This document shows, one piece after another, positions 4,930-57,647 of a DNA stretch of 64,000 bases; positions within the stretch are counted from its first letter, which is position 1; every line of letters starts with the position of its first letter. This DNA is from Trissonchulus latispiculum. Its lineage: Eukaryota; Nematoda; Enoplea; Enoplida; Ironidae. The DNA is taken from the NCBI GenBank assembly GCA_030248195.1, contig JASAND010024002.1, forward strand, positions 1-64,000, read 5' to 3'. Position numbers and translations under genes: made by a program. The notes under the pieces were generated by a model that ran no database searches, was not told the DNA's origin, and saw only the letters and a program-made list of their open reading frames with translations.

Positions 4930-4994
4930 AACACAAAATGAAAAACCTTCATGAGATTATTGTATCTATATATAAGCACTAGGCTAAATTCATT

Positions 4995-5720: not shown

Positions 5721-5986
5721 ACTTTTTCCTATTAAGAGTTTGTCTCAATCCTACTCAGAGTTAATGACAAAGAATATGAATCTCAAAAAGAAATGTACTC
5801 AAATAAGATTTTAATGGCGTGATTTATCATACAAAATTATCCTAATTTAGAAGCAGATGATGTCTAAAAAGAAAATTTTTTCGTTGTAGATTGAATTAAG
5901 ATTATTCTCTGATAAGGTAGTTAAATTAAAATTGTGCATCACTGAGAGTCCAACATCGTTGTAATTTTGAGATATTTAATTCTGCA
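5721..5986. promoter_or_regulatory. Divergent intergenic region between morphogenesis and replication blocks
   Basis: The 266 bases between two outward-facing start codons hold no ORF and are AT-rich. They must supply leaders, and probably promoters, for the capsid block on the minus strand and the replication block on the plus strand. I see no convincing TATA box or palindromic operator. Confidence 0.5.
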
Positions 5987-6415: not shown

Positions 6416-6473
6416 CTTTGAAGTAGAGCATTGAATATATATAAAAATATTTTGTACTGTCTTTTATTTAAAA

Positions 6474-7500: not shown

Positions 7501-7514
7501 TTGTTTTATTATAG

Positions 7515-17031: not shown

Positions 17032-17155
17032 GCATTCAAATACAGTCACTTTGTTGAGTTAAAGGCGCTGATTCAAATAGAAAGTCGCAAATTAAATCAG
17101 AACCAGACACATAAAATCAGTATGTGGCATCACAGTTAGTAAAAATCACACTTAA

Positions 17156-18153
17156 GATGGTGGTGTCCCTTTGTGCAGTGCTTTTGTGGTGATTTTTTGA
17201 AACGCTATAACTTTCCAATTTTGGGAGTTGGAAAGAGCTTTATACATCGTTTTAAAGTTTATTATCTGTACATTCATATGAGCTTACGAAACTGGCAAAA
17301 TAACCAAAGAAATAGCAGAAATTTTCTGACATGCTGACATGAGGAACAGGATGAATATAGACCAAAAGTTTTTGAACATCGATTTCTCAAAACTGAAGAA
17401 TCGGCCAAAACTTCTTTTTGTTCCACGATATGAAGAACATATGGGCGTTTTTTGGATTTGGCTCAGCAGGTCTTAACGGTCGAGAAAACCGGCCAAATGC
17501 ACGGTAGCACTAAATTTCGCAACTTCGCATTGAGTTTTCTTGCTACTCGATATGTTTTAGCCCAAACCAAGAAAAATGTCCCTCCGCAGAAGTGCGAATT
17601 TCGATTCTGCAGAAAATCTCCGGAATCCCTCGAGTAGTTTTTGAGAAATCGATGTTCGAAACAAAATAATTGCAGTTTTGCTAAAATGGTTTTTAGGCCA
17701 TATCTCTATCTTAAAGCAATAAGTCCGGCTAATAAGCATTCATAAAATTGAGCATTTGGACGCTGTATCGATTGAATATAAGTAAGCCCATTTTGTCCTT
17801 AACATGTGGCAATAATTTTGAAAAAACTGATTTCCTCAAAAATGGCCATTTTTCGACCCTCAAAACAGTTTTTGCTTATACTGACTTAACCACTGCAGAT
17901 AGAGCAAAGATTGTAAAAGCAAAAATGTTCGTTTTTGTGTCCTCTTTCTAGCCATAACAACCAATCCCGTGTGTGTCTTGTCTACCTACTGGGAGATAAG
18001 GCCAAAAACCAAAACTTTCTTATCTTTTGGCCTAAAATACGGGACTGGTCCCAGAATTTTAAATAGCACGGAAATAGGCTTCGTAAGTTTTAGTCCTTTA
18101 CGTAAAGGATTAAAGCCGTAGGAATCAAAAATACCCGAAAGGAAACCAGCACC
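17156..18153. mobile_element. TTAA-flanked MITE (piggyBac-like target)
   Basis: This is a 1.0 kb non-coding element flanked on both sides by TTAA (17152-17155 and 18154-18157). The left end reads GATGGTGGTGTCCCTTTGTG and the right end CCAGCACC. Left-end interior TTTGTGCAGTGCTTTTGTG matches the copies near 27390 and 29300. A TTAA target duplication is the mark of piggyBac-type transposases, which must act in trans because no transposase is encoded. Confidence 0.8.
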
Positions 18154-18404
18154 TTAAGAAAGACCAAATCAGTGTTTCTGAATATAGTGCATGCTACTGA
18201 CGCACAGTCGCGTAAAAAGCAATCAGCAATCTAGCCTTCATGATGAGTACATTAGGCGAACAGTGGCAAATTGCAGTATATAATGTATATATTTCAATTT
18301 AATCACAGAATCTCCTACTGCTAATAATAATAAACTAAATCTGAACTTTTGTGAACTGACGGTTCTCTAAGCAAAAGTTCTCTGTATTCCCTTGAAGTAT
18401 TCCA

Positions 18405-21400
18405 CTATTCGTTGAAGCATTCCCAAAATATCTGCGGCGGACTCTTTGTGCAAACAAGTATACCCCTGCAAATAATAATAATAATAACGATGAAACTTAA
18501 ATTAGTGTTGCATTTCCTTTATTCCTAATAAAGAAAGTGTACTCTGTGCTTGGGACAGATCACACCTGGGCAATGGGGGGGTGGACGGGGGGTGGCCACC
18601 CCAGGTCCCACATACGCACCGAAATGATACCTATATGATTTTTTGGAAGAATTGACGCACCAAAATGATACCTACACAATTTTTTTGAAGATTCGGACTC
18701 AGAGGCAAATTTGACTTATCTACCTCTTTGATTTCACACATTATATTCTTCAATCTACACACAATTTTTGATATGTCTACACACTAATTTGCAAGCACGC
18801 GCTGGATTTCGGTTATCGAAGCATTGGATTTGGCCTACCTACGCACCGGATTTCAGTTGTCGACGCACCGGATTTGGCCTACTGACGCACCGGATTTCAG
18901 TTGTCGACGCACCGGATTTGGCCTACTGACGCACCGGATTTGGCCTACCTACGCACCGGATTTCGGTTATCCACGCACCGGATTTGGCCTACTGACGCAC
19001 CAAATTTGGCCTACCTACGCACCGAATTTGGCTTACTGACGCACCGAATTTGGCTTACTGACGCACAGGTTTTCTGTTATCGACGCACCGGATTTCGTTT
19101 GTCGACGCACCGGACTTGGCCTACGTGCGCACCGGATTTCTGTTATCGACGCACCGGATTTCGTTTGTGGACGCACCGGATTTGTCCTACCTACGCACCG
19201 AATTTCGGTTATCCACGCACCGGATTTGGCATACTGACGCACCGAATTTGGTTTAATGACGCACCGGATTTGGCCAACCTACGCACCGAATTTTGCTTAC
19301 TGACGCACCGAATTTGGCATACTGACGCACCGAATTTGGCTTACTGACGCACCGGATTTCGGCTATCGACGCACCGAATTTAGCCAACTGACGCACCGAA
19401 TTTGGCTTAATGACGCACCGGATTTGGCATACTGACGCACCGAATTTGGCTTACTGACGCACCGAATTTGTCCTACCTACGCTCCGAATTTCGGTTATCC
19501 ACGCATCGGATTTGGCATACTGACGCACCGAATTTGGCTTAATGACGCACCGGATTTGGCCTACCTACGCACCGAATTTTGCTTGCTGACGCACCGAATT
19601 TGGCTTGTTGCCATGGCAATAAAGTTGTTATCAGCAGCCTTTTCTCAGACAGACAGTGTTTTCTTCTTTGTGCTACACGGCATGTTTGCTAACATTTTGA
19701 CAAAAACAAATGCCGTCTTCATAGCAGGGAATACCTTATTCAAAAATTCCAAAATCTTTAGCGATCGTGAACTTTTTAACTTTTCAACTTTTGACTACAT
19801 TTCTCGTTTTCGAGTTTCGTATTCTCTGATTCGATGACTTTGATTTTGTATGTTATTTCAGCCGCCTACTGTAATGATTGGTTCTATTATTATTGCTATT
19901 GTCTACATTTATGTCAGCGGAGTTTACGCGGTTGTTCGTCCTACAACTCGAATAATCAATGAGTTGAATATTGACAATCCAGAAGCTGTTGAATCAAATG
20001 AGTTTGTGGAATTAAAGCTGGTTTCTTTTAGCACACTTGCCCACAATCCTCGGGCTAGAAGCAAAACCTCGTTGTACGGATACAAGCTTATTACTATCTC
20101 ATTTTTGCACGTAAATGGAGAACTACTACCAACAATACCAATGGTAGCTAATTTGCGACAGCAAAGTTTAAAAGCTACCAGCAGCTACCGGCGATGCTAC
20201 ATTACGTCCGCCACCGGATCTAGCCTTTAACTCTCCTTTCGTTCAGTCTACAAAGCACTATAAACACCTTGAATCAGGCAATCCAGAACAGTCTAGTGAT
20301 CTACCTAACGGCAATAAAAGGCCGCATGCAGTTGCTATCTTGCGCTGGAAAAATATTGATGACGAAACTTATGTTAAAATATCTTTATCCAAAGAGTCGC
20401 CATACCTAGTTATATTACATGAAATACAGCTAATCTTAAGCAGCCATCTAATGGATTATTTAAAATCTTTAACCCAGCTGACCTGCCAACAGAAGAAGCC
20501 AGTACTGGAACATTTGGCAACACTGAGATAGCTCAGCTGGCTTTAATACTAAATATGGACAACCCAGGGGAAGTTACCACACAGTGGACAAACTTGCTGC
20601 GTACTTTACTGCGCGATCGAGATTATTTTAATTTGCGTTGTGGAGATTCTATCAATTTTTGGTCCCACTATCTACGACAAGAACTTTTAGACTTGCGTCC
20701 TCAAATTCGTCAGTTGCTGCGATCGGTGCTAGTATTACCAGCTAGTTCTGCTGACACAAAGCGTGGATTCAGCATTCTCAAGCATATACGATACGATCGG
20801 CGCAGCTCACGTTCACCCGAGCACTTAGACGAAATCCTACGCATTCGGGTGAATGGACCCACTGAGATTGAAAAATTTAATGCCCTGAAATACGCCAAAA
20901 AATGGATAATAGCTGGGCACATGGCGACAGATGATCCGAGAAAGCAACGAAAAGCTGGAAAAGAATCAGCTCATACAGCATTTGAAATAGACGAGGAAAC
21001 GGACGATATAGTGTTTGAAGACTTTGCAACATCAAAGTTTCAAACCAGTTCACTTTTTTAAATGAAATAATATAACAATACTCTGTAATGGCTTGACAGG
21101 TTTTTTCTATGTTTGCAATCTTTTCTATTGTTTCTTTTACAACTATATGAGGAATATGAAAGCTTTTGTATAAACTTGCAAACGTAGTTTTTTACTGTCA
21201 AGCTTTAAAAAATTAGTTTTTGTAAATTTGTCGAATAAAATATTGTATTAATAAACAGTAATATGACACAGTACTGTAAGTAGGATATATACAACCAATG
21301 ATTTTTACTACAATTTTTTCTTTTAAAAAACAAGCTTGTAATCTCAAATTACGCACCAGATCATAAAGTACCCATTTGGAGGAAAACGCACCGGATTTCC

Positions 21401-27375: not shown

Positions 27376-28381
27376 GGTGCTGGTATCGTTTTGTGCAGTG
27401 CTTTTGTGCGTATTTTTTGAAACGCCATAACTTTCGCAATTTTGTGAGTTAGAAAGAGATTTATACATCATTTTAAAGCTTATAATCTGCAGATTCTCGT
27501 GAGAGTACGAAACTAGTAAAAATCCGGAAATAATAGCTAACATTTTCTGACATACTGACATCTGACAGGCTGAATATAGACCAAAAATTTTTGAACATGG
27601 ATTTCTCAAAACTGTGGAATCGGCCAAAATTTTTTCTTGTGCTGTCCTATAAAGGACATGTGGGCCGAGGGACATTTTTTCGGATTTGGCTCAGCAGCTC
27701 TTAACGGTAAAGAAAATCCATTAAATGTGCGGTGACACAAAATTTCGCAACTTTACATTGAGTTTTCTCGCAACTGGAGATGTTTTAGCTCAAACCAAGA
27801 AAAATGTCCCTCCGCAATAGTGCGAATTCTCATTCTGCCAAAACTCACGCGAATCCATTGGGTAGTTTTTGAGAAATCGATGTTCAAAACAAAATAATCG
27901 CAGTTTTGCCAAAATGGTTTTCGGCCAAATCTCTAACTTAGAGCAACAAACTCCGGCAATAGTAATAGATAAAATGTGCAATGAGACTGTGTATCGATCG
28001 AGTATAAATAAACCAAAATTGTCCGTACGATTTGGTAGTAATTTTGAAAAAACTGATTTTCTCAAAAACGGCCATTTTTGGACACCAAAAATCGTTTTTT
28101 GCTTATGCTGACTTAACCACAAGAGATAGCTCAAAAGTTGTAAAAGCAAAAACGTTCATTTTTGTTCCCTCTTTCCAGCCATACCAACCAATCTGGTGTC
28201 TCGACTATGTGCTGAGAGAATAATGGCAAAAACCAAAAATTTCCTATCTTTGCACCTAAAAATGCGGGACTGGTCCCAGAATGTTAAAGAGCACCGAAAT
28301 AGTATAGTTGGAAAGTTTCATCCACTTTCATAAAGAATTAAAGCCTATAGGGTTAAATTTACACAAAGCGATACCAGCACC
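27376..28381. mobile_element. TTAA-flanked MITE, plus orientation, left partner of a pair
   Basis: The 1,006 bp element begins GGTGCTGGTATCG and ends CGATACCAGCACC, flanked by TTAA at 27372-27375 and 28382-28385. The interior matches 17156-18153. It contains no transposase. Confidence 0.9.
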
Positions 28382-28385
28382 TTAA

Positions 28386-29324
28386 GGTGCTGGTATCGCT
28401 TTGTGTAAATTTGACCCTATGAGCTCTAATTCTTTACGAAAGTGGATGAAACTTTCCAAATATACTATTTCGGTGCTCTTTAACATTCTGAGACCAGTCC
28501 CGCATTTTTAGGTGCAAAGATAAGAATTTTTGGTTTTTGCCATTATTCTCTCAGTACATAGTCGAGACACCAGATTGGTTGGTATGGCTGGAAAGAGGAC
28601 ACGAAAATGAACATTTTTGCTTTTACAACTTTTGAGCTATCTCTAGTGGTTAAGTCAGTATAAGCAAAAAACGAATTTTGGGGTCCAAAAATGGCCGTTT
28701 TCGAGACAATCAGTTTTTTCAAAATTACTGCCAAATCGTACGGACAATTTTGGTTTATTTATACTCGATCGATACACAGTCTCATTGCACATTTCATCAA
28801 TGCCTATTAGCCGAAGTTTGTTGCTCTAAGCTAGAAATTTGGCCGAAAAACCATTTTGGCAAAACTGCAATTATTTTGTTTTGAACATCGATTTCTCAAA
28901 AACTACCCAATGGATTCGCGTGATTTTTGGAAGAATGAGAATTTGCACTATTGCGGAGGGACATTTTTTGGTTTGAGCTAAAACATCTCCACTTGCGAGA
29001 AAACTCAATGCAAATCTGCGAAATTTTGTGTCACCGCACATTTAATGGATTTTCTTGACCGTTAAGACCTGCTGAGCCAAATACAAAAAATATCCCTCGG
29101 CCCACATGTCCTTTATAGGACAGCACAAGAAAATATTTTGGCCGATTCCACAGTTTTGAGAAATCGATGTTCAAAAATTCTTGGTCTATATTCAGCCTGC
29201 CAGATGTCAGTATGTCAGCAAATTTTAGCTGTTTTTTGCGGATTTTTACTAGTTTCGTACTCTAATGAGAATTAGCGTTTCAAAAAATACGCACAAAAGC
29301 ACTGCACAAAACGATACCAGCACC
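28386..29324. mobile_element. TTAA-flanked MITE, inverted, right partner of the pair
   Basis: The 939 bp element is the inverted copy of 27376-28381 and shares its TTAA (28382-28385). The outer TTAA is at 29325-29328. Together the two make an almost 2 kb near-perfect palindrome that could extrude as a cruciform. ORFs on both strands are shadows of one another. Confidence 0.9.
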
Positions 29325-38870: not shown

Positions 38871-40029
38871 TAAGTAGTATACAAATACGGGTTCTAGGAC
38901 ACTTGGCTGCTCAATTGCTGCTAATTGGACAGCTCTGCCTTAATTGGTTTTTGATGGATTCCTTAATAGCTTTTGGTCAAAATTTTTAATTCCCCATTAA
39001 AGAGTAATTACTTTTGGGTTCAATTTTTAATTCCTCAAAGCTTAAGAGACATTATGGGCTAATATAGGATTCTTCAAAACATTGTTGCTGTGGTATTGAT
39101 GTGGGCTAATTTCTGATTCCTCAAACTTAATTACTCATTTGATTAATAGCTTTTGGGTTAATTTTCGATTCCTCAATGTCAAATATTTCAAAATTTGTGT
39201 GGGATTCTTGAAAGCTTGTGAGTTTTGGGCGAATTTTCAATTCCTCAAAGCTTGAGACAGAGAGATGATGTGGGCTAATATTAGATTCCTCAAGCTTAAT
39301 TGTAGGAAAGATTAACAGCCTTTTGGGTTGAATTCCTCAAACTTAATATCCTTCGGGCTAATGTAAGACAAAGATTATGCGATTAATTACTTTTAGGGTA
39401 ATATCGAATTCCTCAAAACTTAAGATAAGTATAAGATAACTTAAGATTAACGACTTTGGGATAATTTTCAATTCCTCAAAGCTTATAAGAAACTAATTAG
39501 GTGGGTTAATATAGAATTCTTCAAACGTCATATCTTTTGGGTTTAATGTAAAATTCCTCAAAGCTTATATGAATAATTACTTTTGGGCTAATATAGAATT
39601 CCTCATGTGATGTATGATTAATGAGTTTTGGGCTAATTTTTCGATTCCTCAAGTTAATATTTGGGCTAATATAGGATTCTTCAAACTGAGTTTCTTGAAT
39701 GATTCATGGGTTTGGGCTAATAAATGATTCCTCACATTAACATTTTGGGTAAATCTTCCTGAATGATTAATTGTTTTTAGGTTAATTTTCGATTCCTCAA
39801 TGTAAAGTATTTGAACTTTTGGGCTAATTTTTGCTTCCTCAAATGGAGATGTGGGTGTTGAATCCTCAGAAATTTTGGGTAAATTTTGGATTATTGAAAG
39901 GTTGTATAATGTTTGGGTAAATGTTTCAATTCCTCAAGGCTAAATCGCTTTTGGGTTAATTTTGGATTCTTGATGAATTTGCGTGAATCCTTAACGTTTC
40001 CGCATACAAGTTTAACTATAGAATGAAAA

Positions 40030-41900
40030 TAAAGACTAAGTAATGCAGTGAAATTCTAGTGTTAACTTCCAGTGGAATAAAACAAAATAAACGGAAAGTT
40101 AGCATGGAAATTTTGACACACACTGATAGAGCACATTCCCGACACCACTGCACGACACTCATAGAGCATCCAATTAGTTAGCAATAATTAATTAAAATCT
40201 GAACAAAGTAACGAAAACAGCCAAAATGAAAGTGGTAACTATTTTCCCAGTAGAATAAAGCATAATAAAATAAAAGTTATAATTATGCTTTAGTTACACA
40301 CCTATCAAGCACACTCTCAACCACACTGCACGACGCTTTCAACCTCATACAACAACTAATTAGTTTGCAATAGTTAATTAATGTTGGTGGAAGATAGTGA
40401 AAATTACCAAAATTAAGGTGGTAACTATTTTCCCAGCGGAATGAAATATATTAAACCTAACATTATCATTAAAAGATTGGTATCCCAGTATAGAGCACAC
40501 TCCCAACACCACTGCACGACATTTTCAACCTCATACAATAACTAATTAGTTTCCAATACTTAATTAATGTTTGAACAAAGTAACGAAAATTGCCAAATTA
40601 AGGTTTCCTCAAGGCTAAATCGCTTTTGGGTTAATTTTGGATTCTTGATGAATTTGCGTGAATCCTTAACGTTTCCGCATACAAGTTTAACTATGGAATA
40701 AAATGAAAATAAAGACTAAGTAACGCAGTGAAATTCTAGTGTTAACACAAGTTTAACTATGGAGTAAAATGAAAATAAAGACTAAGTAATGCAGTGAAAT
40801 TCTAGTGTTAACTTCCAGTGGAATAAAACAAAATAAACGGAAAGTTAGCACGAAAATTTTGTCACACACTTATAGAGCACACTCCCAACAACACTGCACG
40901 ACACTTTCATCCTCATAGACCAGCCAATTAGTTAGCAATAATTAATTAAAGATGGTGTTGGGTTGTGAAAAATGCAAAATTAAGGTGACAATAGTTTTCC
41001 CAGTGGAATTTAACATAATAAATTTAAAGTTATGACTATAATTTTATTACACGCCTATCACGCACACTCCCAACAACACTGCACGACACTTTCTACCGCA
41101 TAGAACAATTAATTAGTTAGCAATAATTAATTAAAATCTGAACAAAGTCACGAAAACAACCAAAATTAAGGTGGTAACTATTTTACCAGTGGAATAAAGC
41201 ATGATAAAATAAAAGTTATAATTATACTTTTATTACACACCTATCAAGCACATTCTCAACAACACTGCACGACACTTTCATGCTCATACAACAACCAATT
41301 AGTTTGCAATAGTTAATTAATGTTGGTGGAAGATAGTGAAAATTACCAAAATTAAGGTGGTAACTATTTTCCCAGCGGAATGAAATATATTAAACCTAAC
41401 ATTATCATTAAAAGATTGGTATCCCAGTATAGAGCACACTCCCAACACCACTGCACGACATTTTCAACCTCATACAATAACTAATTAGTTTCCAATACTT
41501 AATTAATGTTTGAACAAAGTAACGAAAATTGCCAAAATTAAGGTAACAATTATTTTCCCAGTGGAATTTAATATAATAAACATGAAGTTTCCACTGAAAT
41601 TTTTGTGTCATCATGTAGAGCACATTCTCAACAACACTGCACGACACTTTGATCCTCATACGGCTACTAATTAGTTAGCAATAATTAAATAAAGTTGGTG
41701 AAATATTGTGAAAAATGCCTAAATTAAGGTGACAATTATTTTCCCAGCGGAATTTAACATGATAAACTTAAAGTTATGATTATAATTTTGTTATATTCTT
41801 ATAAAGCAGATGTCCAATAACACTGCACGACACTTTCATGCTCATACAACAACTAATTAGTTAGTAATAATTAACTAAAGTTGGAGTAAAAATGGAAAAA
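40030..41900. repeat. About 184 bp satellite, nine units in the left arm
   Basis: Units are marked by CCAGTGGAATAAA-like words at about 40070, 40249, 40433, 40812, 41000, 41186, 41371, 41558 and 41751. Each contains AGAGCACACTCCCAACA, CACTGCACGACACTTTC and CTAATTAGTTAGCAATAATT. The spacing of about 180-190 bases is close to a nucleosome repeat. The right arm (51105-52070) has six units. Confidence 0.88.
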
Positions 41901-42220
41901 ATAGTGAAAATTTAAGGCGACCAAAGATGTTAATGGAAAATCATGATGTATAATAAAGTTGTCGCTGGAATAGAAGTCAAATTCGGGGAGTCAAAGTAGA
42001 GTTCAGGGAAACAAATACACCCTCAAGAATAATTAATGAAACCTAATTCAGTGATGCTGCAAACTAATTATATTACATTCTTGTATGTTCACATTTACGA
42101 CTTCTTTGGACGAATTCTAAACACAGGAAATTGATGTTAACCATTTGAGGACGGAATTTATATCAAATTCTGACGTATTGAATCTATCTTCTGAACACAG
42201 GAAATTTATCTTGACCAGAG

Positions 42221-43132
42221 ATGAACGGTAAGAAAGCATTCGTAATGATGGTTGATATATCACTGAAATGATACCCATTTGAAGGAAATTTGCAGATATG
42301 ACTAATTACCCTTGATTCACCTTTAATTTTTACCACCTACCCTTGTAAACTGTCCCTGTTTTAGCATGCCCTACATGTGGATCGACATTTGCCAGGAAAA
42401 GTGGTGTCACCAAACATATTCGCCAACAGCATCGAGTCGTTCATTGTGGAAGGTGTGGACAGGAGTTCCCTAACCAAAGGCTGCTGCGTAAACATGAAAA
42501 GTCAGATCATCAACCACTAACATGCCAGCATTGCAATCAGTCATTTGCCACACACACGGACCTGGGAGAGCATATCAGCGAGTATCATAGATGCGGTCAG
42601 TGCGATTTTCCTGGATCTCCTGAACCATCAACGCACACAACATCCACCTGATCCTCCTAGTTCCAAACCAAGGGAATTTCCAGATGATCCAGTATTTCCT
42701 CCACCAGATGCCAGTGATATCTATAGACAAAATTGGCATCGAATACGAACACACAAGAACGAGAGGAAGGTCATCCGCCAGTATAATTTCCGATTGGATG
42801 GTCAGGATATGGAAGAGATCACGGATGCTATAAGATCAGTTTACCCACAACAACGAAACAAGTCGAAGTAGAACATATCATTCGGATTCATCCTGCGCAA
42901 CCACCTGACTGAAGAGTCTATCTATTATTACGCCAGTAACAATACATCCATGTTCACATTCCCTCCCTTAATTGCTAATAGATCAGATCTGGAAAGATTT
43001 ATTGATAGGGTTGAAAGTCAAGATATTCTGGAATGGGCATTCCGGCAACGGCCCACTACGAAATATGTTGTTGAAAGAGTGACTAATATGTTGGTTACAG
43101 TATATGTTATCCTTGGCCATCCTATCGGTTGA
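42221..43132 (+). pseudogene. Left-arm copy of the zinc-finger gene, broken
   Basis: The copy mirrors the intact right-arm gene: mini-exon ATGAACG (42221-42227) with donor GTAAGA, acceptor CCCTGTTTTAG, and exon from 42365. Compared with the right arm it has a 5-base deletion near 42605 in the fourth finger, which shifts the frame, and a TGG to TAG change at about 42870. The two later ORFs (42545-42871, 42950-43132) are the remaining pieces. One copy decaying while the other stays open suggests selection on, or recency of, only one arm. Confidence 0.85.
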
Positions 43133-43358
43133 TTGTATTGCTGACAGTATTTTAACTTACTTACTGTACATTGTGTAAAAATATATCTATCTTGTGTTGT
43201 TTCATATGTGTTTGCTAATAGTACTGTATTGTTTGCTGTTTGTGTGGTGTTTGTCCTGTGTTTGTTGATAAATTGTTGGTTTTAATTCATTAAATTGGTT
43301 CAGATGGCTATAGAGTCTTAGAGTAGGTTTCTTGATACTGCAATAATTTCAAAAAATA

Positions 43359-43955
43359 CCTGGTCCTCTGAGTGTCAAGTGCTAGTGCATTACTTTTATT
43401 ACTGATCCACCTACAACCCTCCAATCTTTCTAACAACTCCATACCACCACCCGTCACACAAACAGGAGTATTATGTCGTTATCTTCACGGTGTTACGAAA
43501 TTAAATTAGCTCAATCTGCTGCGATGTTCAACAACCTCACTACAGTCTTAACAGTAACCAGCTTATTAGGAAAATTATGTAGTTTCCCAAGTGAAGGTTT
43601 ACGCTTCTGACAGAATATCTCAGTAACATATGGTAGGATGAATAATTAGCGCATACGTACTACTCTCATTTGAGACTAAACAAGAGTATGTTTAACTCCT
43701 CAAAGCCTTCACCACTATACCTACCTACCTGAAACAGTAAATAAAGAGTTTAAACTTCAAGTGCAAGAATATCTTGGTGAATCTTAGTGCAACTGTTGTA
43801 GGAGAAATCAAGCTTCTATACGTCTGCAATTTCTACACTTACACGTACGTTTCCTTTATTCGAGTATAAACACGATGAACATACAATATTATTCCATTAG
43901 AACTGTTAACGTCATGATATAGTCAAGCCAGTCATCTGCCAAATTCGTGGTTAAT
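43359..43955. other. Left part of the unique centre, no gene
   Basis: Simple AT-rich DNA between the left arm and the central zinc-finger ORF. I see nothing coding. Confidence 0.5.
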
Positions 43956-44294
43956 CTATGTATGAGCTTGTTGAATATGTAAATTCAGGTTCGATTTTCG
44001 CTGGAAGGTCTTCTGAAATTGATCGCACTGAAAGGTTTCTTCAGAATGTTGCTCTTTGATGTGGCGGTTGTAATTGGAGAAGTTGGAAAATTGTTCATAG
44101 CAAATATTGCACGTTGTATGATCTCGATTTCGATGGGTCATGAGGTCCTTCCTGGTAGTGAATATTTGTCCACAGATTTGACATGCTTTCGTAGTATGGT
44201 TCACTTGGATATGGCGATGAAGTGACTTTTTCCAAGTGTATGTTTTTCCACAGGTCTGGCAAGTGTAACTAACATTTGGTACTACTCCTGACAT
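43956..44294 (-). CDS. Central C2H2 zinc-finger protein
   Basis: The 112-residue ORF is almost entirely C2H2 fingers. Three are complete: CQTC...HIQVNH, CQIC...HRNRDH and CNIC...HIKEQH. The fourth reads CDQF, with Phe in place of the second Cys, then HIQQAH. The start ATG at 44294 lies two bases behind an acceptor TTTTTTCTAG, so an upstream exon may exist. The order and spacing of the fingers resemble the N-terminal half of the arm-borne zinc-finger gene, and a common origin is likely. It probably binds DNA, perhaps element ends. Confidence 0.65.
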   Translation of the reverse strand: MSGVVPNVSYTCQTCGKTYTWKKSLHRHIQVNHTTKACQICGQIFTTRKDLMTHRNRDHTTCNICYEQFSNFSNYNRHIKEQHSEETFQCDQFQKTFQRKSNLNLHIQQAHT

Positions 44295-44315
44295 ATCTAG
44301 AAAAAAGATGGGCAA

Positions 44316-47192
44316 TTAATCAAAGCAAGTCAATCAACAAGTCAAAGGTACATTAATCAATCATCAAAACAAACATCCTCATCATTATAAAAACAAACAT
44401 CACGACAACTAAGACTGTTTTATAGGATTATCTTGTTGAACCATTTTCTCTGTACAAAATTGGCACGTTCTGTTTTAGGATTTCTTCCACTGGTGATGGT
44501 GAAATCAGGGTTTGGAAATTTCTTGTTGGAAGGGTGTGCAGTTTCAAGAAAGGTTTCGATGGGAAAATGTTAGTTAAAATCGTTTCTTATATACGTAAAA
44601 TGACATATTTTACATTCGTAAGTTACATATAAGTAGTTTATGCAAAAGTCGTCAATCACATTAGTAAGTTCTTAACATTGTAAATCCACACGCTTTGTAA
44701 ACATTCAAAAACAGACACCTTTGATTTGAAATCAATACAGTCCTCACACTTCTAATGGGTTGGTATAAACTGACAAATTCTGAAAGAGATGCTTCACTTA
44801 TTAGAAGCTTAAGATGCACAGAAGTCTAATGATAAATGAATCTAATCCAACAGAAAAAGATGAAATAATGAAATATTAAATATGTTTAAATTGAGTCATA
44901 CAGCTGACAGGCAAACCAGTATAGCTTTCCAGGTCGTTTGTAACCAATCATATGCTCTTTTTCAAAATTTGGCACAGTTCTGTAGGAAGGCATAAAGCCA
45001 TTACATGTAACGAAATACTACCGAAATAGAGTATTACAACAGTAAAGTATATACGTACTTTCATAATTCAACAGTGATTATAACTTAGGGATTAAGCAGG
45101 TTTATTTTCTATTTAGCTAATAAAGTTAAGAAAAACATACGGCAAAGTTAGTACAGTAAAGGTTATATACCCAGTAAATTCACGAGAAATGAAAACATCT
45201 GCAAAATGTATAGTGTGTTTACCGTTATATAAAGAAGATAATTGCTTAGTGAACCTGATACAACTTTAACCTGCTTTTCTATGAGTGTGACCGCGTCTTG
45301 ACCACAACTTCAACGACGCCGTAGTGTGACTCACATAAATTGATCTAAACTCTGAATTGCTTCCGTTTCTATCTATTATACATAATCTTAACTGCTTAAC
45401 ATCCGCAATATGACTATACTCAGTTGTTCTGAGATTGAATTTGAAATGCGAAATGGCAGGTGCGCAATACTTTCGAATTCAACGGGGAGACCGATGAATT
45501 AAATTAAGTAATAGCCTAGATTCAAGCCGTCATCTGGCCTTCAATTTTGGCGTTCAGTTGGTGCCTAAATCGTGGATTTAAAGCGCTAAATACAAGTTAA
45601 AGTGTGATGCGAGCATCTGCGTTTTTCATAAAGAAGTCACACACTAACCTACCTCCTGCAGAGGCGAAAGGAGAGCGTATTGGGGTAGCGTTTCTATATT
45701 TTCAGTAATTAATGATTTGTCAAATTTGAGTCCTATTATTTGCATTTAAGAAATACGATGTTAATAATCATTTAGTTTGCATTTTCTGTCGAACGAAATA
45801 CGCCTCAACCTAATTTCAAATTCTGCTTTCAAATGTAAGTTGTTTCTGACTTGATCTACTTGGTTTGTTTATGGTCATGCTCCCGTCAGGGTTGGGAGTC
45901 TAGGTCTCGGTCTCTGAGATATGGAAAATTCGAATTTCCGAGCCACATGAAAAACATTCTGTAGAATATTAAGTGCTCCACCACTCTGCTTTCGAATTAC
46001 AAACTTCCAGGTTTTATTGATACAGTAACTTTTGAAGAATTTCTAATTAAATATTGATTGTTTTAATGGAAGTTAATAATGATTATTCTTGTTACTTCCT
46101 GCACGTATCAGGAAAGCTTGTGTTTATAGTAGAGATTTTTGAAAGCTACATGAACGGGAAAGGGACACTAACTTAGTCTGTTACCTCTTATCGAATATTA
46201 TATTTCAAACACCAAACACGATGTATGTGGTACTCCAATTCCAATAGAAGACCTGAAGAAATTAGCAATAGTTGGTTAGCAGATGGATATACACATTATT
46301 TGTCTTTATCTATCTATAAACTATTTATCTATCTTCTATTTACCTATTTTATCTATCAACCCCAACCTTTAAAAGCTGGTTGAATTGGAAAATTTTGGAA
46401 GTCAATGGATTTTAGTGTATTGAAACCAAAATTAAGCAACCATTCGTGAAAGATATCTGAGGTTCTGTTGTGAGTTGGACCAGTCCTAATTTGTTTAAAA
46501 TTGTTCTACAAATTTTTTGGTTAAAAATTGTTAGCAAAATGCCACCAACGTAAACTACATAAAATTGTTTTAACACCACCCAAGATGAGGAAAAACGTTG
46601 CTTTATGTTGGGTGTGTTTGGCAAATCCAAATACTTAAGATTTAACCTTACATAAAAGTCTACCATGTGCCAAAAATACGATCATATTGATATTGAATTG
46701 CTACACTATTGAAATCATCCGTATGTTCAACGATTGGCATCATGTATGCAAAAGATTAGGTCTCCTTAGTGTTTGCCACTGGTGATTCAAGGTTAAACGA
46801 TTAGAAAACTAATCATATTTATAAAATGTGAACAGATGTTGGTTAAACTGCTTCTATTGAAATTTACCGGTCAACTTAAAGTTTCATTCTGCTCCAAGTG
46901 CACCATATATTACTTTTAATATGGTTGTGGTACTTGTTTAAGCCATGAGGATTGTTTCCAGAATTTGTTTAAAGTTGAAAAAGCTAGATTTTACCTCTCG
47001 AGCTTGCATCGTTCAGCCCCTAGGCACTCAATCAGGCGTTAATCTTCCAATGTCTACACGGACACATGTAAGATCTAAACCATGGCTACTGAACTTGTTT
47101 AGTTATCAGACAACCTTTTTTTATTGACCAGATTTACTTTATTTACACTTCGACCAGAATTTGTATTGTATCTTTATTGTAATTTTAGATAA
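44316..47192. other. Non-coding centre of the giant element
   Basis: The stretch is 2.9 kb without a supported gene. An 84-codon minus-strand ORF at 46412-46666 has no features and is discounted. The region could hold introns or a long leader for the rightward ORF at 47193. Confidence 0.5.
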
Positions 47193-48263
47193 ATGGAGCA
47201 CCTATCCGGCCCAGTGGTGAATACTAATCCCACACCACTCCAACAACAACGCACTGCGTCTTCATCGGCAATGCCAACTGAACCTGTCAGACCCGTTCGT
47301 CGCACTAGTCAAGAAACAGGAGGGGCCGAATCCAGTGTATTTCCTAGAAGACGGAATCCCTCTTCGTTGGATTCTGAAATCCCAGAAGTTTTCGGAGCGC
47401 TTCACCAGGAAACACGAGTGCCTTTCAGTCGGGTTAATCAAATTTGCCGCGAAAACGGAATTCCATCATTCGGATCACCAGTACCAAATCGTGACAGTCA
47501 AGGTCCTGCCACCAGATTGCCCCCGCCATCATCTGCTGCTGCGCGACCAGTGGCTACGTCTCACCGTAACACCAGACCAGCTCCAAGACGTCACGTTGTT
47601 CATTCTGGGGCTCAGGCATCATCCCCACGTACAGACCGGACCGTTGCCGGCGCCAGTCGAATCGTCCACGATCCCAATCAATCCCCGGCCCACCAACCAG
47701 AGAGTTATCCTGGAGCGGTGGACCTGTTGCACATGATTCCTAGCGAAAATCCTTATCCAATTGGAACATTTTACGGACCTCTTCCCAATCCTCAGGGTCC
47801 TGAAGCTATTCAAATGCGAAATCTGCAGATTGAGTACGAAAATGCGGCACCCAAAGATCCTAGTATTCCTCTGCAGGACATTGTTCAGGGCGCGTTCCGG
47901 GAGTGCTACTTAAAAGCGCATCCATGGGCATCTACCCTTGGGGACCAAGCTGCATTCATTTCTTCTCTTGAGGAATTGCGGGGTACGATAATGCAGCTCC
48001 TTAATGACCGTCGATTCAAGACGATCAACAATTATCATCCTGAGCCTCCGTATGGGGAATTCCCCAACTATTACACCCGCCTGCAGGCCCAGGCCCGAGT
48101 CCCTCCACCAAGATACCCAATTAATCATTTTCATCATGGTCGAATTGGAGGGTATGACCAGCAACAGACGCCGTCCATTCAGCCGCAGACCGACAACTTC
48201 CTGTCGGCTAACACCCCGTACCCTCCACGTCGGGCACCCTCCACTGAGGAATCAGATGGTTAA
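47193..48263 (+). CDS. Proline-rich 356-residue protein of the giant element
   Basis: This is the longest intact ORF of the centre. Residues 1-180 are disordered and rich in Pro, Ser, Arg and Gln. Residues about 185-290 look folded (DLLHMIPSENPYPIGTFYG; a helical part with QGAFRECYLKAHPW and SLEELRGTIMQLL). The C-terminus is again Pro/Tyr-rich. No known domain is recognised and no catalytic acid triad is evident. The ATG sits 4 bases behind an acceptor-like TTGTAATTTTAG, so a 5' leader intron is likely. It has a GC content higher than its surroundings, typical of true coding DNA here. Confidence 0.6.
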   Translation: MEHLSGPVVNTNPTPLQQQRTASSSAMPTEPVRPVRRTSQETGGAESSVFPRRRNPSSLDSEIPEVFGALHQETRVPFSRVNQICRENGIPSFGSPVPNRDSQGPATRLPPPSSAAARPVATSHRNTRPAPRRHVVHSGAQASSPRTDRTVAGASRIVHDPNQSPAHQPESYPGAVDLLHMIPSENPYPIGTFYGPLPNPQGPEAIQMRNLQIEYENAAPKDPSIPLQDIVQGAFRECYLKAHPWASTLGDQAAFISSLEELRGTIMQLLNDRRFKTINNYHPEPPYGEFPNYYTRLQAQARVPPPRYPINHFHHGRIGGYDQQQTPSIQPQTDNFLSANTPYPPRRAPSTEESDG

Positions 48264-49692
48264 ACTAACATTTTTAATAACTTTTTTGGCAGTTTGTTTG
48301 TTTTTACTTATCTACTTTTATAAACATTAATGTACTTTATACCGTAATTAAGTTGTTCCTTTCTATGAATTTATGTTTTGCTTTGTAAATGCCATCTGAA
48401 CCAATACGTTTGTTGCAATTTTCAGCACGAACCAGAACCTTCGATTTGCATAGATGATTGAAAAAATAGTGGTAAAACATGGAACAAACGGCAAACAACT
48501 AGCTAGAATCTTGACCACAGTTAACTGAGTGTGGATAGTATGCACAGAGACAGAATTAAATATTTTTGGTATTATTTTGTTGTTTTTTGCTTTGGTATGT
48601 TTAACATTTTGAGAAAATGGTGAAATTTTTGGGAATTTTATATTGGAAAATTAACAGTTCGAGGAGTAGTTAAGTTAAATGAAAAGTTAATTAAGTTTTG
48701 GAGGAATTACACATTCAACAAGCTCATATATAGATTAACCATGAATTTGGCAGATGATTGGCTTGACTAAGCATTATACTAATGACAGTATGACATGGTT
48801 ATTTGTATAATAATTGTTTGCTATATTGTTACTAAGCGGTTATTACGTAAGATTATTGCACTGTGTACAGGCTTAGTAATTTTGTATATTTGGAATTGGT
48901 TATCTATGTTGCAATTATGTAGATGTAGACTTCTGTCGCCTATTCTTTTGTTAATTGCTTGTTATGCTTGTGAGGGTTTCAAGAAAAAGTCGTGTCAAAT
49001 TACAGAAACCCTCAAAAAATGTTGGCAGCAGTTTGAAATAGTAAAGGGAAGACATCACACCATATATAAAAGACTAATGTTGAGTGTTCTGTTTTTATAT
49101 CTATGTCGATTTGATTGATTGTTATATTAGTGACATTATCGGTTATTGACAAATCAAAGATTTGAGGAATTGACAATTTAAGGAATCGGAATTAGTAACG
49201 AGTTGGAATTGTTTTATTCTGTTCGTATTTTAGTGTATCAGTTATGGAAATTATATTGTATGAAAAGTAATATGGAATGGATCAATTAAATAATAACCGG
49301 CATTTTCCACATTTTTTTTCTTACTAATGGACAACGAAGAAGAAGAAATGTAAGCGTTCATACCGCGATTAGCAGAACTCAAGTCAGGGCCGCGATTGTC
49401 TAAAGACTAGTAATGTGATAATACTGAAGAAGAATGGGGTTGAGGAATCTGTTTATAAAGCAATAGAGATGGTTGTGGAGCAGACCCATAGAAGGTCGAC
49501 CTCACTTGAAAATAGAATAGAACAGCTTATTGAAATTAGAAGTTGTAGACAGTCTCTAAGCAAGACAGGGTAATCCCGCTGGGACCCCACCCAGCAAAAG
49601 AGAGTCGGAGTTTGTAGACAGTCTTTGGGTAAGAGAGGGTACTCCCGCTGGGATGAAAAAATACACTTAACACTAGTTAGTGGAGTGGATCA
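48264..49692. other. Right part of the unique centre, mostly non-coding
   Basis: A hydrophobic ORF at 48795-49118 (107 codons) lies here and is listed separately. Two near-identical segments near 49545-49580 and 49608-49645 (AGACAGTCT...CCCGCTGGGA) form a short direct repeat. Nothing else is recognised. Confidence 0.5.
48795..49118 (+). CDS. Possible small membrane protein
   Basis: The 107-residue ORF has two or three hydrophobic stretches (ICIIIVCYIV; LCTGLVILYIW; LLSPILLLIACYA) and a short Lys-rich segment. Hydrophobic ORFs arise easily in AT-rich DNA, and no family or start context supports it. Listed only because it is intact and in the right-facing direction of the centre. Confidence 0.2.
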   Translation: MVICIIIVCYIVTKRLLRKIIALCTGLVILYIWNWLSMLQLCRCRLLSPILLLIACYACEGFKKKSCQITETLKKCWQQFEIVKGRHHTIYKRLMLSVLFLYLCRFD

Positions 49693-52600
49693 GAAATTTT
49701 GTGAGATTATTGAATACTCAAGAAATCTAGGACTCTATAGCCGTCTGAACCAATTTATTGAATAAAAAACACAACAAGTTATCATGACCAAACACAACAC
49801 AACACTATTAGCAAACACAAAACACAAAGTAAGCACAAACCACAAAGTACAAACCACCTCCAGATATGAAACAACACAAAATAGATATATTTTTACACAA
49901 AGTACAGTAAGTAAGTTAAAATACTGTCAGCAATACAATCAACCGATAGGATGGCCAAGGATAACATATACTGTAACCAACATATTAGTCACTCTTTCAA
50001 CAACATATTTCGTAGTGGGCCGTTGCCGGAATGCCCATTCCAGAATATCTTGACTTTCAACCCTATCAATAAATCTTTCCAGATCTGATCTATTAGCAAT
50101 TAAGGGAGGGAATGTGAACATGGATGTATTGTTACTGGCGTAATAATAGATAGACTCTTCAGTCAGGTGGTTGCGCAGGATGAATCCGAATGATATGTTC
50201 CACTTCGACTTGTTTCGTTGTTGTGGGTAAGCTGATCTTATAGCATCCGTGATCTCTTCCATATCCTGACCGTCCAATCGGAAATTATACTGGCGGATGA
50301 CCTTCCTCTCGTTCTTGTGTGTTCGTATTCGATGCCAATTTTGTCTATAGATATCACTGGCATCTGGTGGAGGAAATACTGGATCATCTGGAAATTCCCT
50401 TGGTTTGGAACTAGGAGGATCAGGTGGATGTTGTGTGCGTTGATGGTTCAGGAGATCCAGGAAACTCGCACCGCACTGACCGCATCTATGATACTCGCTG
50501 ATATGCTCTCCCAGGTCCGTCTGTGTGGCAAATGACTGATTGCAATGCTGGCATGTTAGTGGTTGATGATCTGACTTTTCATGTTTACGCAGCAGCCTTT
50601 GGTTAGGGAACTCCTGTCCACACCTTCCACAATGAACGACTCGATGCTGTTGGCGAATATGTTTGGTGAGACCACTTTTCCTAGCAAATGTCGATCCACA
50701 TGTAGGGCATGCTAAAACAGGGACAGTTTACAAGGGTAGGTGGTAAAAATTAAAGGTGAATCAAGGGTAATTGGTCATATCTGCAAATTTCTTTCAAATA
50801 GGTATCATTTCAGTGATATATCAACCATCATTACGCATGCTTTCTTACCGTTCATCTCTGGTCAAGATAAATTTCCTGTGTTCAGAACAAAAGATAATAC
50901 AATATAAATACAATATATTCAATACAATATAAATTTCGTCCTCAAATGGTTAACATCAATTTCCTGTGTTTAGAATTCGTCCAAAGAAGTCGGAAATGTG
51001 AACATACAAGAATATAGTATAATCACTTTGCAACATCACTGAATCAGGTTTCATTAGTCTTGAGTGTGTATTTGTTTCCCTGAACTCTACTTGACTCCCC
51101 GAATTTGACTTCTATTCCAGCGACAACTTTATTATACATCATGACATTAACATCTTTGTCCGCCAATTTTCACTATTTTTTCCATTTTTACTCCAACTTT
51201 AGTTAATTATTACTAACTAATTAGTTGTTGTATGAGGTTGAAAGTGTCGTGCAGTGGTGTTCGACATCTGCTTTATAAGTATATAACAAAACTATAGTCA
51301 TAACTTTAAATTTATTATGTTAAATTCCGCTGGGAAAATAATTGTCACCTTAATTTTGGCATTTTTCCACAATATTTCACCAACTTTAATTAATTATTGC
51401 TAACTAATTAGTCGCCGTATGAGGATCAAAGTGTCGTGCAGTGTTGTTGAGAATGTGCTCTACATGATGACACAAATATTTCAGTGGAAACTTCATGTTT
51501 ATTATATTAAATTCCACTGGGAAAATAATTGTCACCTTAATTTTGGCAATTTTCGTTACTTTGTTCAAACGTTGATTAACTGTTGCAAAATAATTAGTTA
51601 TTGTATCAGGTTGAAAGAGTCGTGCAGCGGTGTTGTGCTCTATACTGGGATACCAATCTTTTAATGATAATGTTAGGTTTAATATATTTTATTCCACTGG
51701 GAAAATAGTTACCACCTTAATTTTGGCAATTTTCACTATCCTACACCAACATTAATTAACTATTGCAAACTAATTAGTTGTTGTATGAGGTTGAAAGCGT
51801 CGTGCAGTGTGGTTGAGAGTGTGCTTGATAGGTGTGTAACTAAAGCATAATTATAACTTTTATTTTATTATGCTTTATTCTACTGGGAAAATAGTTACCA
51901 CTTTCATTTTGGCTGTTTTCGTTACTTTGTTCAGATTTTAATTAATTATTGCTAACTAATTGGGTGCTCTATGAGTGTCGTGCAGTGGTGTCGGGAATGT
52001 GCTCTATCAGTGTGTGTCAAAATTTCCATGCTAACTTTCCGTTTATTTTGTATTATTCCACTGGAAGTTAACACTAGAATTTCACTGCATTACTTAGTCT
52101 TTATTTTCATTCTATAGTTAAACTTGTATGCGGAAACGTTAAGGATTCACGCAAATTCATCAAGAATCCAAAATTAACCCAAAAGCGATTTAGCCTTGAG
52201 GAATTGAAACATTTACCCAAACATCATACAACCTTTCAAGGAATCCAAAATTTACCCAAAATTTCTGAGGATTCAACACCCACATCTCCATTTGAGGAAG
52301 CAAAAATTAGCCCAAAAGTTCAAATACTTTACATTGAGGAATCGAAAATTAACCTAAAAACAATTAATCATTCAGGAAGATTTACCCAAAATGTTAATGT
52401 GAGGAATCATTTATTAGCCCAAACCCATGAATCATTCAAGAAACTCAGTTTGAAGAATCCTATATTAGCCCAAATATTAACTTGAGGAATCGAAAAATTA
52501 GCCCAAAACTCATTAATCATACATCACATGAGGAATTCTATATTAGCCCAAAAGTAATTATTCATATAAGCTTTGAGGAATTTTACATTAAACCCAAAAG

Positions 52601-53201
52601 ATATGACGTTTGAAGAATTCTATATTAACCCACCTAATTAGTTTCTTATAAGCTTTGAGGAATTGAAAATTATCCCAAAGTCGTTAATCTTAAGTACACG
52701 TAAGTTTTGAGGAATTCGATATTACCCTAAAAGTAATTAATCGCATAATCTTTGTCTTACATTAGCCCGAAGGATATTAAGTTTGAGGAATTCAACCCAA
52801 AAGGCTGTTAATCTTTCCTACAATTAAGCTTGAGGAATCTAATATTAGCCCACATCATCTCTCTCTCTCAAGCTTTGAGGAATTGAAAATTCGCCCAAAA
52901 CTCACAAGCTTTCAAGAATCCCACACAAATTTTGAAATATTTGACATTGAGGAATCGAAAATTAACCCAAAAGCTATTAATCAAATGAGTAATTAAGTTT
53001 GAGGAATCAGAAATTAGCCCACATCAATACCACAGCAACTATGTTTTGAAGAATCCTATATTAGCCCATAATGTCTCTTAAGCTTTGAGGAATTAAAAAT
53101 TGAACCCAAAAGTAATTACTCTTTAATGGGGAATTAAAAATTTTGACCAAAAGCTATTAAGGAATCCATACAACGGCAATTAAGGCTGAGCTGTCCAATT
53201 A
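49693..53201. repeat. Right arm of the giant inverted repeat
   Basis: Inverted complement of the left arm: intact zinc-finger gene (49939-50855), six 184 bp satellite units (about 51105-52070) and the outer TTGAGGAAT/ATTAGCCCAAAA block (52190-53160). It ends in GAGCTGTCCAATTA. Confidence 0.9.
49939..50855 (-). CDS. Arm-borne C2H2 zinc-finger protein with conserved C-terminal domain, intact copy
   Basis: Exons are 50849-50855 (ATG AAC G) and 49939-50711; donor GTAAGA and acceptor CCCTGTTTTAG join in phase 1. The product is about 259 residues. Four C2H2-type fingers occupy residues 4-100 (CPTC, CGRC, CQHC, CGQC). A Pro-rich linker follows, then a domain with DIYRQNWHRIRTH, a WNISFGFIL strand, YYYASNN, and a helix-rich end (LERFIDRV, ILEWAFRQRP). 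I recall proteins of this layout recurring in other invertebrate genomes, but cannot confirm it. The DNA-binding N-terminus plus conserved C-terminus make it the best candidate for the element's own mobility or maintenance protein. Confidence 0.75.
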
Positions 53202-53754
53202 ATTTTAATAGAGTCCTCAACATACAAAAGAATTGAACATATGGTAGGCACTAAGTCCACAATTGGGCAGATGGTAGGACACAAATAAGCCATAAGTTTA
53301 ACCACAAGTTTAAAATTCACCAGACAGATGATAAGCCAGAACATTAATTAGGTCATTAATTCTTGACAGCTAGTGACAGCTAAGTGTCAAATTTTGACAG
53401 GTCTGGGCTGATCCAAGAATGGAACCGGTTTTTGATCCCAAAGTGCTCCCATTTGAAGTCTCCTATACTACTTGAATAATATCTGGCCAAAAAATTAGAA
53501 AGCTAAATTGTTTGTCTCAAACCGCTTCAAAATAGCTACCATAAAGTATATACTTTCGGAACCGGCATAATGAGCCCTTTCGTTTCAAGAAATGTTTTCT
53601 GAAATTTTCTGTGCAACTTCAGAGGTTGCCGCTTTTGTAGTTCCAGAAAGATCGGTAAAGGGTTGAGTCAGAAAGGTTTCAGAAAATTCGTCACACTAAA
53701 TTCCAGTTTCTTTGGTTAAGAAAGCTGTTCTCGATTTGCAAAATCCCTTCTCAG
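53202..53754. other. Interval without recognised gene
   Basis: Ordinary AT-rich DNA between the giant element and a palindrome-rich cluster. No supported feature. Confidence 0.5.
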
Positions 53755-54153: not shown

Positions 54154-55723
54154 CACTCTTAGAAATACTTTAGTAGTTTCTACTGGAACAACTCCAGTAG
54201 CTCAGAAATACTAAAGACTTTAGTAGATTTGACTGGATGGTGGAGTAATAAGTACTGGAGGTAGTCCAGTAACAAGTACTGGAAATGTCTTATTAAGAAA
54301 TAACTGGTTTCTCCAGTAGTTTCTACTAAATATTTTAGTAGCATTTACTGGATTTGGGTTGTTAAACTTACTGGATTTTCCAGTAATTTTTACTGGATCC
54401 AGTATTAAATTGCACCAAACTCCTACAATGTGTCAAAACACAAAAATACTGGATTTCCAGTAATTTCTACTAGTTTGTCCAATAATATCTACTGGACTCC
54501 TGAAATACCCCGAGCACCAAAAATACTGGATTTTCCAGTAATTTCTACTGGTTTCTCCAGTAATATCTACTGGTCTCCTGAAATACCACGAGCACCAAAA
54601 ATACTGGATTTTCCAATAATTTCTACTGGTTTCTCCAGTAATATATATCTACTGGACTCCAGAAAAGCCCGAGCACCACAGATACAGGATTTTCCAGTAA
54701 TTTCTTCTGGCTTTGCCAGTAATATCTTCTGGATTCCTAAAATACTCCGGTCATCAAAAATATGGTTGAATGAAGATGCAGTGCTTTTCATTAGTTATTA
54801 CTTAACACTGGTACTTTGTTGTAAATTCACGTAGTGTTTGTTTGTGTTATGCTATGGTTTGTAAGGTTTGTTTTCCAAAAAACGCTATATAGGTAAATTG
54901 CAGTTGAGAATTAGTTTTCAGCGATCAGATTTTGGGCAAGTCATTTGTCCTGGTCTCTGCTTCTGTATCAACAGAAGTTAAGGGGCTCATTTTTGTAGCC
55001 GTTATGCACTTTCGTGGGTGCTGACGGCTGGGAAGGCAAAGTGGGGGATTTTCCAAGGTTGGGAAAATCACCCATTATGAATGGAGTGAAAATCCATTGG
55101 TGACTGGTAACCAATCTAATTGATTAGTATGACATAAAATCTCCATCGTAAGAGGTTGAAACGCATACAGTTTAGTTCCGAGAATATGTGTGCTTTCTAA
55201 AAATTCAGTATTTTTATAGGTGTTCAGACTATATTAGGAGTCTAGTAGATATTACTGGACAAACTAGTAGAAATTACTGGAAAATCCAGTATTTTGGGTA
55301 CTCAGATTGTATTAGGAGTCTAGTAGAAACCACTGGAGAAAGTAGTAAAAACTACTGGAAAATCCAGTATTTTTGGTACTCAGACTATTTTAGGAGATTG
55401 GTAGAATCTACTACTGAGTCCAGTAGAAATTACTGGAAAATCCAGTATTTTTGCCCCCGAAAAATTTTTGGGGGATCCAGTGTATAATACTAAATATCTA
55501 GTAGAAACTACTGGAAATTCCAGTAGTTAGTATGTCAAAGCAGTAAAGAGTTCTACATAGATTATCTAGTACAGTTTACTAGCTATTTCCAGTAGTTTTT
55601 AAAATACTGGACTACTTTAGTAGGAAAATACTAATCGCTCCGCTATGTCTTTATCGCACTGGAGCACTTTAGTAGGAAATTACTAAGCTTCCAGTACTTT
55701 CTACTGGAACATTTCTAAGAGTG
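54154..55723. mobile_element. Foldback MITE with TA target duplication (Tc1/mariner-like target)
   Basis: The 1,570 bp element begins CACTCTTAGAAAT and ends with its complement. The TA dinucleotides at 54152-54153 and 55724-55725 are the duplication. The flanks (CATCCAT|TA|CTTGGAG) rejoin to match the unbroken repeat at about 36731-36746, which serves as an empty site. The interior consists of many ACTGGA/TCCAGT palindromes, left-half motifs inverted in the right half. ORFs inside are repeat artefacts. Confidence 0.88.
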
Positions 55724-56438: not shown

Positions 56439-57647
56439 TTGGTGATGGTATCCTTTTGAGTAGTGATTTTTGAAAGCTATCAATTTTGCCATTTTAGGAG
56501 TTGGAAAGAGCTTTAAACATAGTTTTAAAGCTTATGATGAGTACATTCATATGATTACAGAAATTAGCAAGATTCCCAAGAAATTTTCTGACATACCGGC
56601 GAAATTGTCCGTCAAGTTTTCAACATCGATTTCTCAAAACTGTAGAATTGGCCAAAATCACTTTTTATACCTTGGTGTGAAGGACATGTCGGACATTACT
56701 TGGGTTTCGCTCAACACTAGCGTAGCCAGAAATAATTTTTTGAGGGGAATGTAAGAAATTTTTGGGGGTTTGGGGGGCGGACCGGAAGATGGAAAATTTT
56801 TGACCTCATGAAAATCTCGTGACCTTCGTGGAATTTTTACAAGGAATTCCTTGAAATTAAAAATACTTAGGGCCCAGCACGTATTCATGGACCGAATGCT
56901 GCAGAAGATGGTCCAAACACACCAAATAGGGTATTTGGAACTCTTTTTTGAGTGCGAAACACGTATTATGTTGGTGCAATTCACTTTTTCGCGCCGAAGG
57001 CGCGAAAATTTTTTGAAAAATGTGCGTTTTAACGTGGCAGGGGAAATATTCCTGGGGGGTCCACAATGTCGGGGGGACTCCCCCATTCCCCCCCCCCCCC
57101 GCTGGCTACACGCGTCAACATGTCTTAATGCTCCAGAAAATCAGCCAAATGTGCGGTGACACGAAATTTTGCAGCTTCACATTAAGTTTTTTCGCAACTG
57201 GACAAGTTTTAGCTCAAAGCAAAATGTCCTTCCGCAATAGTCCAAATTCTCGCCCTGCCGAAAATCACGCGAATCTTCATTAGGGTAGTTTCTGAACAAT
57301 TGATGCTCAAAACAAAATAATTACAAAATATATAGTTTTTCAGCCAAATCTATAGCTTAATGTAACTAACTCCAGCTAATAGGCATTGATAAATGTAGAA
57401 TCTGACTGTGTATCGATCGAGTATAAAATAAACTAAAATTGTCCGTAAGATTTGGCAGTAATTTTGAAAAACTAATTTCCTCGAAGACGGCCATTTTTTG
57501 ATCCCCGAAAAATGTGGGGCTGGTTCTAGAATGTTAAATAGCACCAAAACAAGGCTAATGCAGTTGGAAAGTTTCATCCGCTTTCATAAAGAATTGAGCT
57601 TGTAAGGTGAAATTTACACAAAGAGATTAATTAATTCTTGCAGCACC
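56439..57647. mobile_element. TTAA-type MITE with nested insertion
   Basis: The left end (TGGTGATGGTATCCTTTTGAG) is diverged, the right end is CAGCACC followed by TTAA (57648-57651). Interior words match 17156-18153 (for example GAGTTGGAAAGAGCTTT and TTCTCAAAACTG). It is interrupted by 56717-57114. Confidence 0.8.
56717..57114. mobile_element. About 400 bp hAT-like MITE nested in the TTAA element
   Basis: Ends carry GCGTAGCCAG on the left and CTGGCTACACGC on the right, flanked by TCAACA on each side (56711-56716, 57115-57120). G-rich next to the left end and C-rich next to the right end. It contains CGCGCCGAAGGCGCG near 56990, also found in the MITE at 34439-35640. The homologous run in other copies of the host repeat is uninterrupted. 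Confidence 0.65.

Follow-up and report, generated by a model that had tools for sequence, protein, structure and literature searches.

Polintons, or Mavericks, are regarded as integrated viruses. The intact vertebrate Mavericks described in PMC8097293 are given there as 12.7-24.6 kb long, with terminal inverted repeats (TIRs) of 46-1,447 bp, 6-bp duplications and 5'-(AGT)2//(ACT)2-3' as the commonest ends. In the present study, we analyzed the first 64,000 nucleotides (C16240:1-64000, hereafter the window) of contig JASAND010024002.1 from the nematode Trissonchulus latispiculum (assembly GCA_030248195.1), which contain an element of 14,600 bp (38873..53472) with long inverted arms. The element is Polinton-like at its ends and not so in those Polinton genes that were searched for. 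Polinton ends and target duplications are combined here with a free terminal protein (TP) under selection, and no Polinton enzymes were found in the sequence read, so that a non-autonomous, Polinton-derived element is the simplest account. We therefore consider it likely that this is a multicopy, non-autonomous member of the Polinton/Maverick lineage, which carries a stand-alone TP and borrows its polymerase and integrase, and the results point to a parasite of Mavericks/Polintons. This agrees with one alternative of the original prediction, a model's note made from the letters alone, namely that of a non-autonomous giant element.

The original prediction of a 14.3-kb inverted repeat at 38922..53201 was borne out for the repeat itself, but its ends had to be moved to 38873 and 53472. 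Self-comparison with blastn revealed an imperfect long inverted repeat, with 97.2% identity over 1,685 alignment columns between 38922-40604 and 53201-51534, and 92.6% over 2,305 columns in a second block between 41111-43369 and 51961-49684. In other copies, the repeat extends 271 bp beyond 38922/53201, to 5'-AGTAGTATAGG, and alignment with these copies places the right end in the window at 53472. The left arm lies at 38922..43369 (plus strand), and the right arm at 49684..53472 (minus strand), with its terminal 271 bp at 53202-53472. The left tip with its (AGT)2 end (38873..38921, plus strand) was placed by AGTAGTATA at 38873, together with flanking hexamers (TAAATA / TGAATA) that match at 5 of 6 positions. 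In a blastn-short search with 38873-38922, the bases adjoining AGTAGTATA (the first 36-39 bp or so of the tip) matched a different repeat. The left side therefore lacks most of the terminal 271 bp, and its tip is either chimeric or a replacement. The different repeat forms a second family with an (AGT)2 tip (AGTAGTATACAAATACGGG...), observed at window positions 38873-38911, L028:727-765 and L010:5320-5355, and it perhaps represents a further end of the Maverick type. The ends at 38922/53201 had at first suggested a transposon with a 4-bp duplication, an idea dropped after the true ends had been located. Tandem Repeats Finder detected in both arms the two predicted classes of tandem repeat, an outer motif of ~45 bp and a satellite of ~186 bp, the latter arrayed at 40158..41886 (plus strand) in the left arm and 51193..51975 (minus strand) in the right arm.

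Searches of the same genome covered 734 Mb in 21,732 contigs. With window positions 38922-41000 as the query, at least 125 matches were found on at least 33 contigs, and these counts are lower bounds, since 40 of 162 first-look candidates were scored. Twenty stretches, plus five short ones, were retrieved for comparison, and 22 of the 23 ends read start with AGTAGTATAGG, the exception being C18392, in which the first base differs. The structure thus has many further copies with shared ends and is not confined to one place in the genome, contrary to the single structure without defined ends that would have spoken against the original prediction. Of five comparable copies, three have a complete (6/6) 6-bp target duplication, and one of these three is spread over two contigs. 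The hexamer ACTCTC stands on both sides of C325 and GTCAAC on both sides of C15663, while GCCGAG flanks C8329 and C8253 when they are taken as one copy and three AGT units are counted at the C8329 end. These two are contig ends whose terminal 1.5 kb are 99.7% identical, and they are probably the two ends of one element. Protein-primed replication with a jump-back start, a mechanism known from adenovirus, would leave a step of three bases at the tips. In C910, no position matched (0/6) and the flanks are without target duplication; for C17885, no left terminal was located within the retrieved sequence. The C910 (L011) and C16780 (L025) copies have the same left flank, with one base different beside the tip, and the C4971 copy contains an insertion that reads as a long interspersed nuclear element (LINE). 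The missing duplication at the arms of C910, and arm satellites that favor recombination, would suit an inverted repeat spread as a fold-back or segmental duplication without integrase. However, the sharp ends common to 22 of 23 and the three complete duplications leave this explanation hardly credible.

The right arm carries an intact gene of 259 amino acids, which consists of a predicted exon 1 (ATGAACG, 50849..50855, minus strand, an exact ATGAACGGTAAG match with donor GTAAGAA) and an exon 2 (49939..50711, minus strand) coding for C2H2 fingers and a TP-like D1 ('FGFIL') domain. The left-arm copy has the predicted exon 1 (42221..42227, plus strand), and its exon 2 (42365..43132, plus strand) is broken by a frame disruption and a premature stop. 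A complete gene had been claimed for each arm; the finger/FGFIL gene is indeed present in both, but it is intact only in the right one. The arm protein matches the N-terminal region of a protein-primed DNA polymerase with the domain order fingers, D1, vOTU and polymerase, and D1 in such polymerases is the domain proposed as the TP. The arm protein corresponds to the TP end of a known polymerase family and is not a transposase. It was correctly singled out as the key protein, but it is not of the undescribed mobility kind that had been suspected. When the arm-protein family was compared by hhalign with the polymerase of a Polinton elsewhere in the window, the fingers alone were aligned, so the link to the polymerase depends on the fused relatives. 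Integrases and transposases were absent from the best 25 of 34 Pfam families for the arm protein, PHROGs gave weak or finger-type matches only, and scans of viral contigs with the arm protein, alignment A1, the window PolB and P0010 yielded no relative.

Structural modeling predicts a TP-type fold for the arm protein, of the little-finger (LF/PAD) type. The candidate linking residue is T233 of the 256-residue exon-2 product, which follows R230-P231 in the motif R-P-T-T-K-Y and would be the hydroxyl residue near Pro/Gly between α2 and β4. In the T233 column, 124 of 131 sequences have Ser, three Thr and one Asn, and three have a gap. The linking residues listed in PMC11071308 are Ser or Tyr in D1 domains and Ser, Thr and Tyr in TPs generally; thus, Thr at T233 fits TPs in general but falls outside the D1 residues of that listing.

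Among 127 relatives that reach the end of the arm protein, 125 continue for at least 20 residues (median 281), and the exceptions, P0003 and P0008, may be fragments. In the element copies, a stop directly follows residue 256, at the D1/vOTU boundary, in 14 of the 16 that are readable to residue 250 or beyond; of the remaining two, L028 has its stop after residue 255 and L027 loses the frame near the end. Similarly, tblastn matches between the retrieved loci and P0067 end by residue 265 at the latest. The shared stop and the matches ending at the TP part indicate that what is a single chain elsewhere, thought to be cut, is a gene of its own here. The predicted exon 1 and donor, ATGAACG|GTAAG (ATGAACGGTAAG), were found exactly in 17 places (14 loci plus the window). 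An acceptor lies 71-189 bases downstream of exon 1 in 14 of these places and was not found in the sought form in the other three (L016, L024, L028). On these signals, the arm gene is predicted to be spliced, with the junction ATGAACG|GT...AG|CATGCCC.

The arm gene is under purifying selection. The ratio of nonsynonymous to synonymous substitution rates (dN/dS) was 0.09-0.46 in 28 pairs from eight full-length arm genes, including the C325 gene, which carries a stop that was masked. Genes that were partial or frame-broken were omitted, namely the left copy of the window, the second and right C325 genes, both C17885 genes, the right one of C14639, the piece of C8329 that is cut, and those of C18130, C18392 and C4971. 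Four disjoint, hand-picked pairs contained 42 nonsynonymous and 64 synonymous changes, with 78% expected to be nonsynonymous (p 7e-18).

A Polinton is located at 3377-11571 in the window, with an rve integrase at 6474-7076 (2.7e-11). Its polymerase is split over three open reading frames (ORFs), two of which match DNA_pol_B_2 (1.9e-21 and 1.5e-13), and the window, which begins at the first base of the contig, revealed no TIR for it. The split polymerase and missing TIR of this Polinton, and the several arm genes that are broken among the copies, might suggest that the copies are merely decayed Polintons, with the TP fragment a functionless remnant of a fused polymerase gene. In view of the purifying selection, the conserved exon 1 and the common stop at the domain boundary, however, we regard decay as very improbable. 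The enzymes of a Polinton were searched for by tblastn (E 0.01) in the element and 33 loci (185,468 bases, partly overlapping, with several copies cut by contig ends). The polymerase queries (the PolB ORFs of the window Polinton, P0067, P0013 and P0010) matched finger and TP parts only, and the window integrase ORF, the one integrase query, had no match in these sequences. No match in the 33 loci and the element was obtained either for two ORFs of the window Polinton, which we take to be capsid candidates and to which Pfam gives no capsid family.

The center of the element contains, as had been predicted, two ORFs, one for a second finger protein and one for a proline-rich protein. The finger ORF (43956..44315, minus strand, 119 amino acids; Pfam zf-C2H2 3.5e-16) is present in seven other copies, one of them with a stop, and its dN/dS was 0.08-0.57, save for one pair with 2.34 on seven changes. 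The best 25 of its 37 Pfam families include no integrase or transposase. The proline-rich ORF (47193..48263, plus strand, 356 amino acids) has no Pfam match, and its product had zero relatives at E 0.1 among 2393 candidates, so that none was found outside the T. latispiculum genome. These results bear out the earlier statement that no known transposase family is represented among the proteins. The proline-rich ORF occurs at 94-96% identity in C17885 (one stop) and C15663 (from residue 21 on), in pieces with a stop in C18392, and in a form of about 42% identity in C910, C14639 and C1816; it is thus kept in two subfamilies, at 42-48% identity. It was not seen in C325, which was examined over its whole length. 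Selection on it is weaker, with dN/dS of 0.72 and 0.34 in the two unsaturated pairs. In the centers of C2328 and C18130, there is an ORF of ~360 amino acids with the motif SLDTEGLD (L023:5448-6527 and L024:5675-6766, minus strand), which looks exonuclease-like by eye only; its dN/dS was 0.84, Pfam gave no match for either copy, and the C2328 ORF had no sequence match in PDB.

The centers thus vary among the copies, and the proline-rich protein is kept in two subfamilies although it lacks relatives. Both observations would be consistent with an autonomous element moved by undescribed proteins, whether the proline-rich protein, the central finger protein or the ~360-amino-acid ORF of two copies. 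However, the 6-bp duplication and (AGT)2 ends correspond to Polinton integration, which makes a new enzyme unnecessary, and C325 has a complete duplication without the proline-rich ORF. Autonomy by such means is therefore quite unlikely, and mobilization by borrowed Polinton enzymes is the reading that we follow.

In the cycle proposed for the non-autonomous element, it would keep ends that the Polinton integrase and the protein-primed polymerase recognize, and the arm gene, one per arm with the left copy broken in the window, would yield a free finger and TP protein. The fingers would carry this protein to the element DNA, where the hydroxyl of T233 might accept the first nucleotide from the protein-primed polymerase of a complete Polinton. 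Synthesis would begin at the (AGT)n repeats and proceed to the opposite end, and a retrovirus-type integrase supplied in trans would insert the linear product, duplicating 6 bp of the target. What we infer here is the mobilization in trans, the priming itself, which residue links to DNA and what the fingers bind. A free TP-like protein might also be an inhibitor that binds Polinton ends or the polymerase unproductively, be it in selfish interference or in a defence kept by the host, and a selected, finger-bearing domain apart from the polymerase would suit such a dominant-negative protein as well. However, the predicted linking column stays Thr with the preceding R-P retained, and the arms that hold the gene end as in Polintons and are flanked by target duplications, which means that the element itself integrates in that way; inhibition is unlikely. 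Beyond a non-autonomous element with its own TP, it is quite possible, and we propose it tentatively, that this is a two-component protein-primed system, in which a Maverick satellite with a split-off TP gene in both arms competes with complete Mavericks for polymerase and integrase, and its center swaps cargo genes between subfamilies. Searches of open-license papers revealed no satellite parasitizing Mavericks in animals and no element like the present one. A free, selected TP, with no neighboring polymerase found, offers a small testable protein for asking whether the Maverick D1 primes DNA synthesis.

Several other features were observed in the window. A P450 gene (Pfam p450) lies directly left of the element. 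A 1.8-kb palindrome with 93.7% identity is located at 27493-29272, with relatives at 16405-18158 and 57115-57513. Arrays of a 78-bp unit with TACTGG/CCAGTA motifs in opposite orientations occupy 54441-55453, and a 22-bp tandem unit is repeated about 35 times at 18826-19606.

Taken together, the element shares with Polintons/Mavericks the 5'-(AGT)2//(ACT)2-3' ends, the 6-bp duplications, a TP-type D1 and a length of 14.6 kb that is within the range given for vertebrate Mavericks (PMC8097293). It differs from them in its arms of ~3.8-4.4 kb, which exceed the TIRs reported in that source and hold a gene and satellites, in a D1 that is a separate protein, and in retrieved stretches where the polymerase, integrase and capsid-candidate queries are unmatched beyond the finger and TP parts. 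In structural modeling, the arm protein and its fused relative have their best matches in adintoviruses and MELD viruses; unlike in adintoviruses, PolB, OTU and integrase queries match nothing past the TP part in the element, hexon not being among the queries. The TPs of adenovirus and PRD1 are likewise stand-alone and are placed in the same fold class in PMC11071308. However, they have helical extensions and a polymerase encoded by the same genome, whereas the domain of the element is preceded by C2H2 fingers and no polymerase was found. The linear plasmids pGKL1 and kalilo, as treated in PMC11071308, also have protein-primed ends and a D1-type priming domain, but there this domain belongs to the polymerase chain, from which it is cut off in pGKL1.
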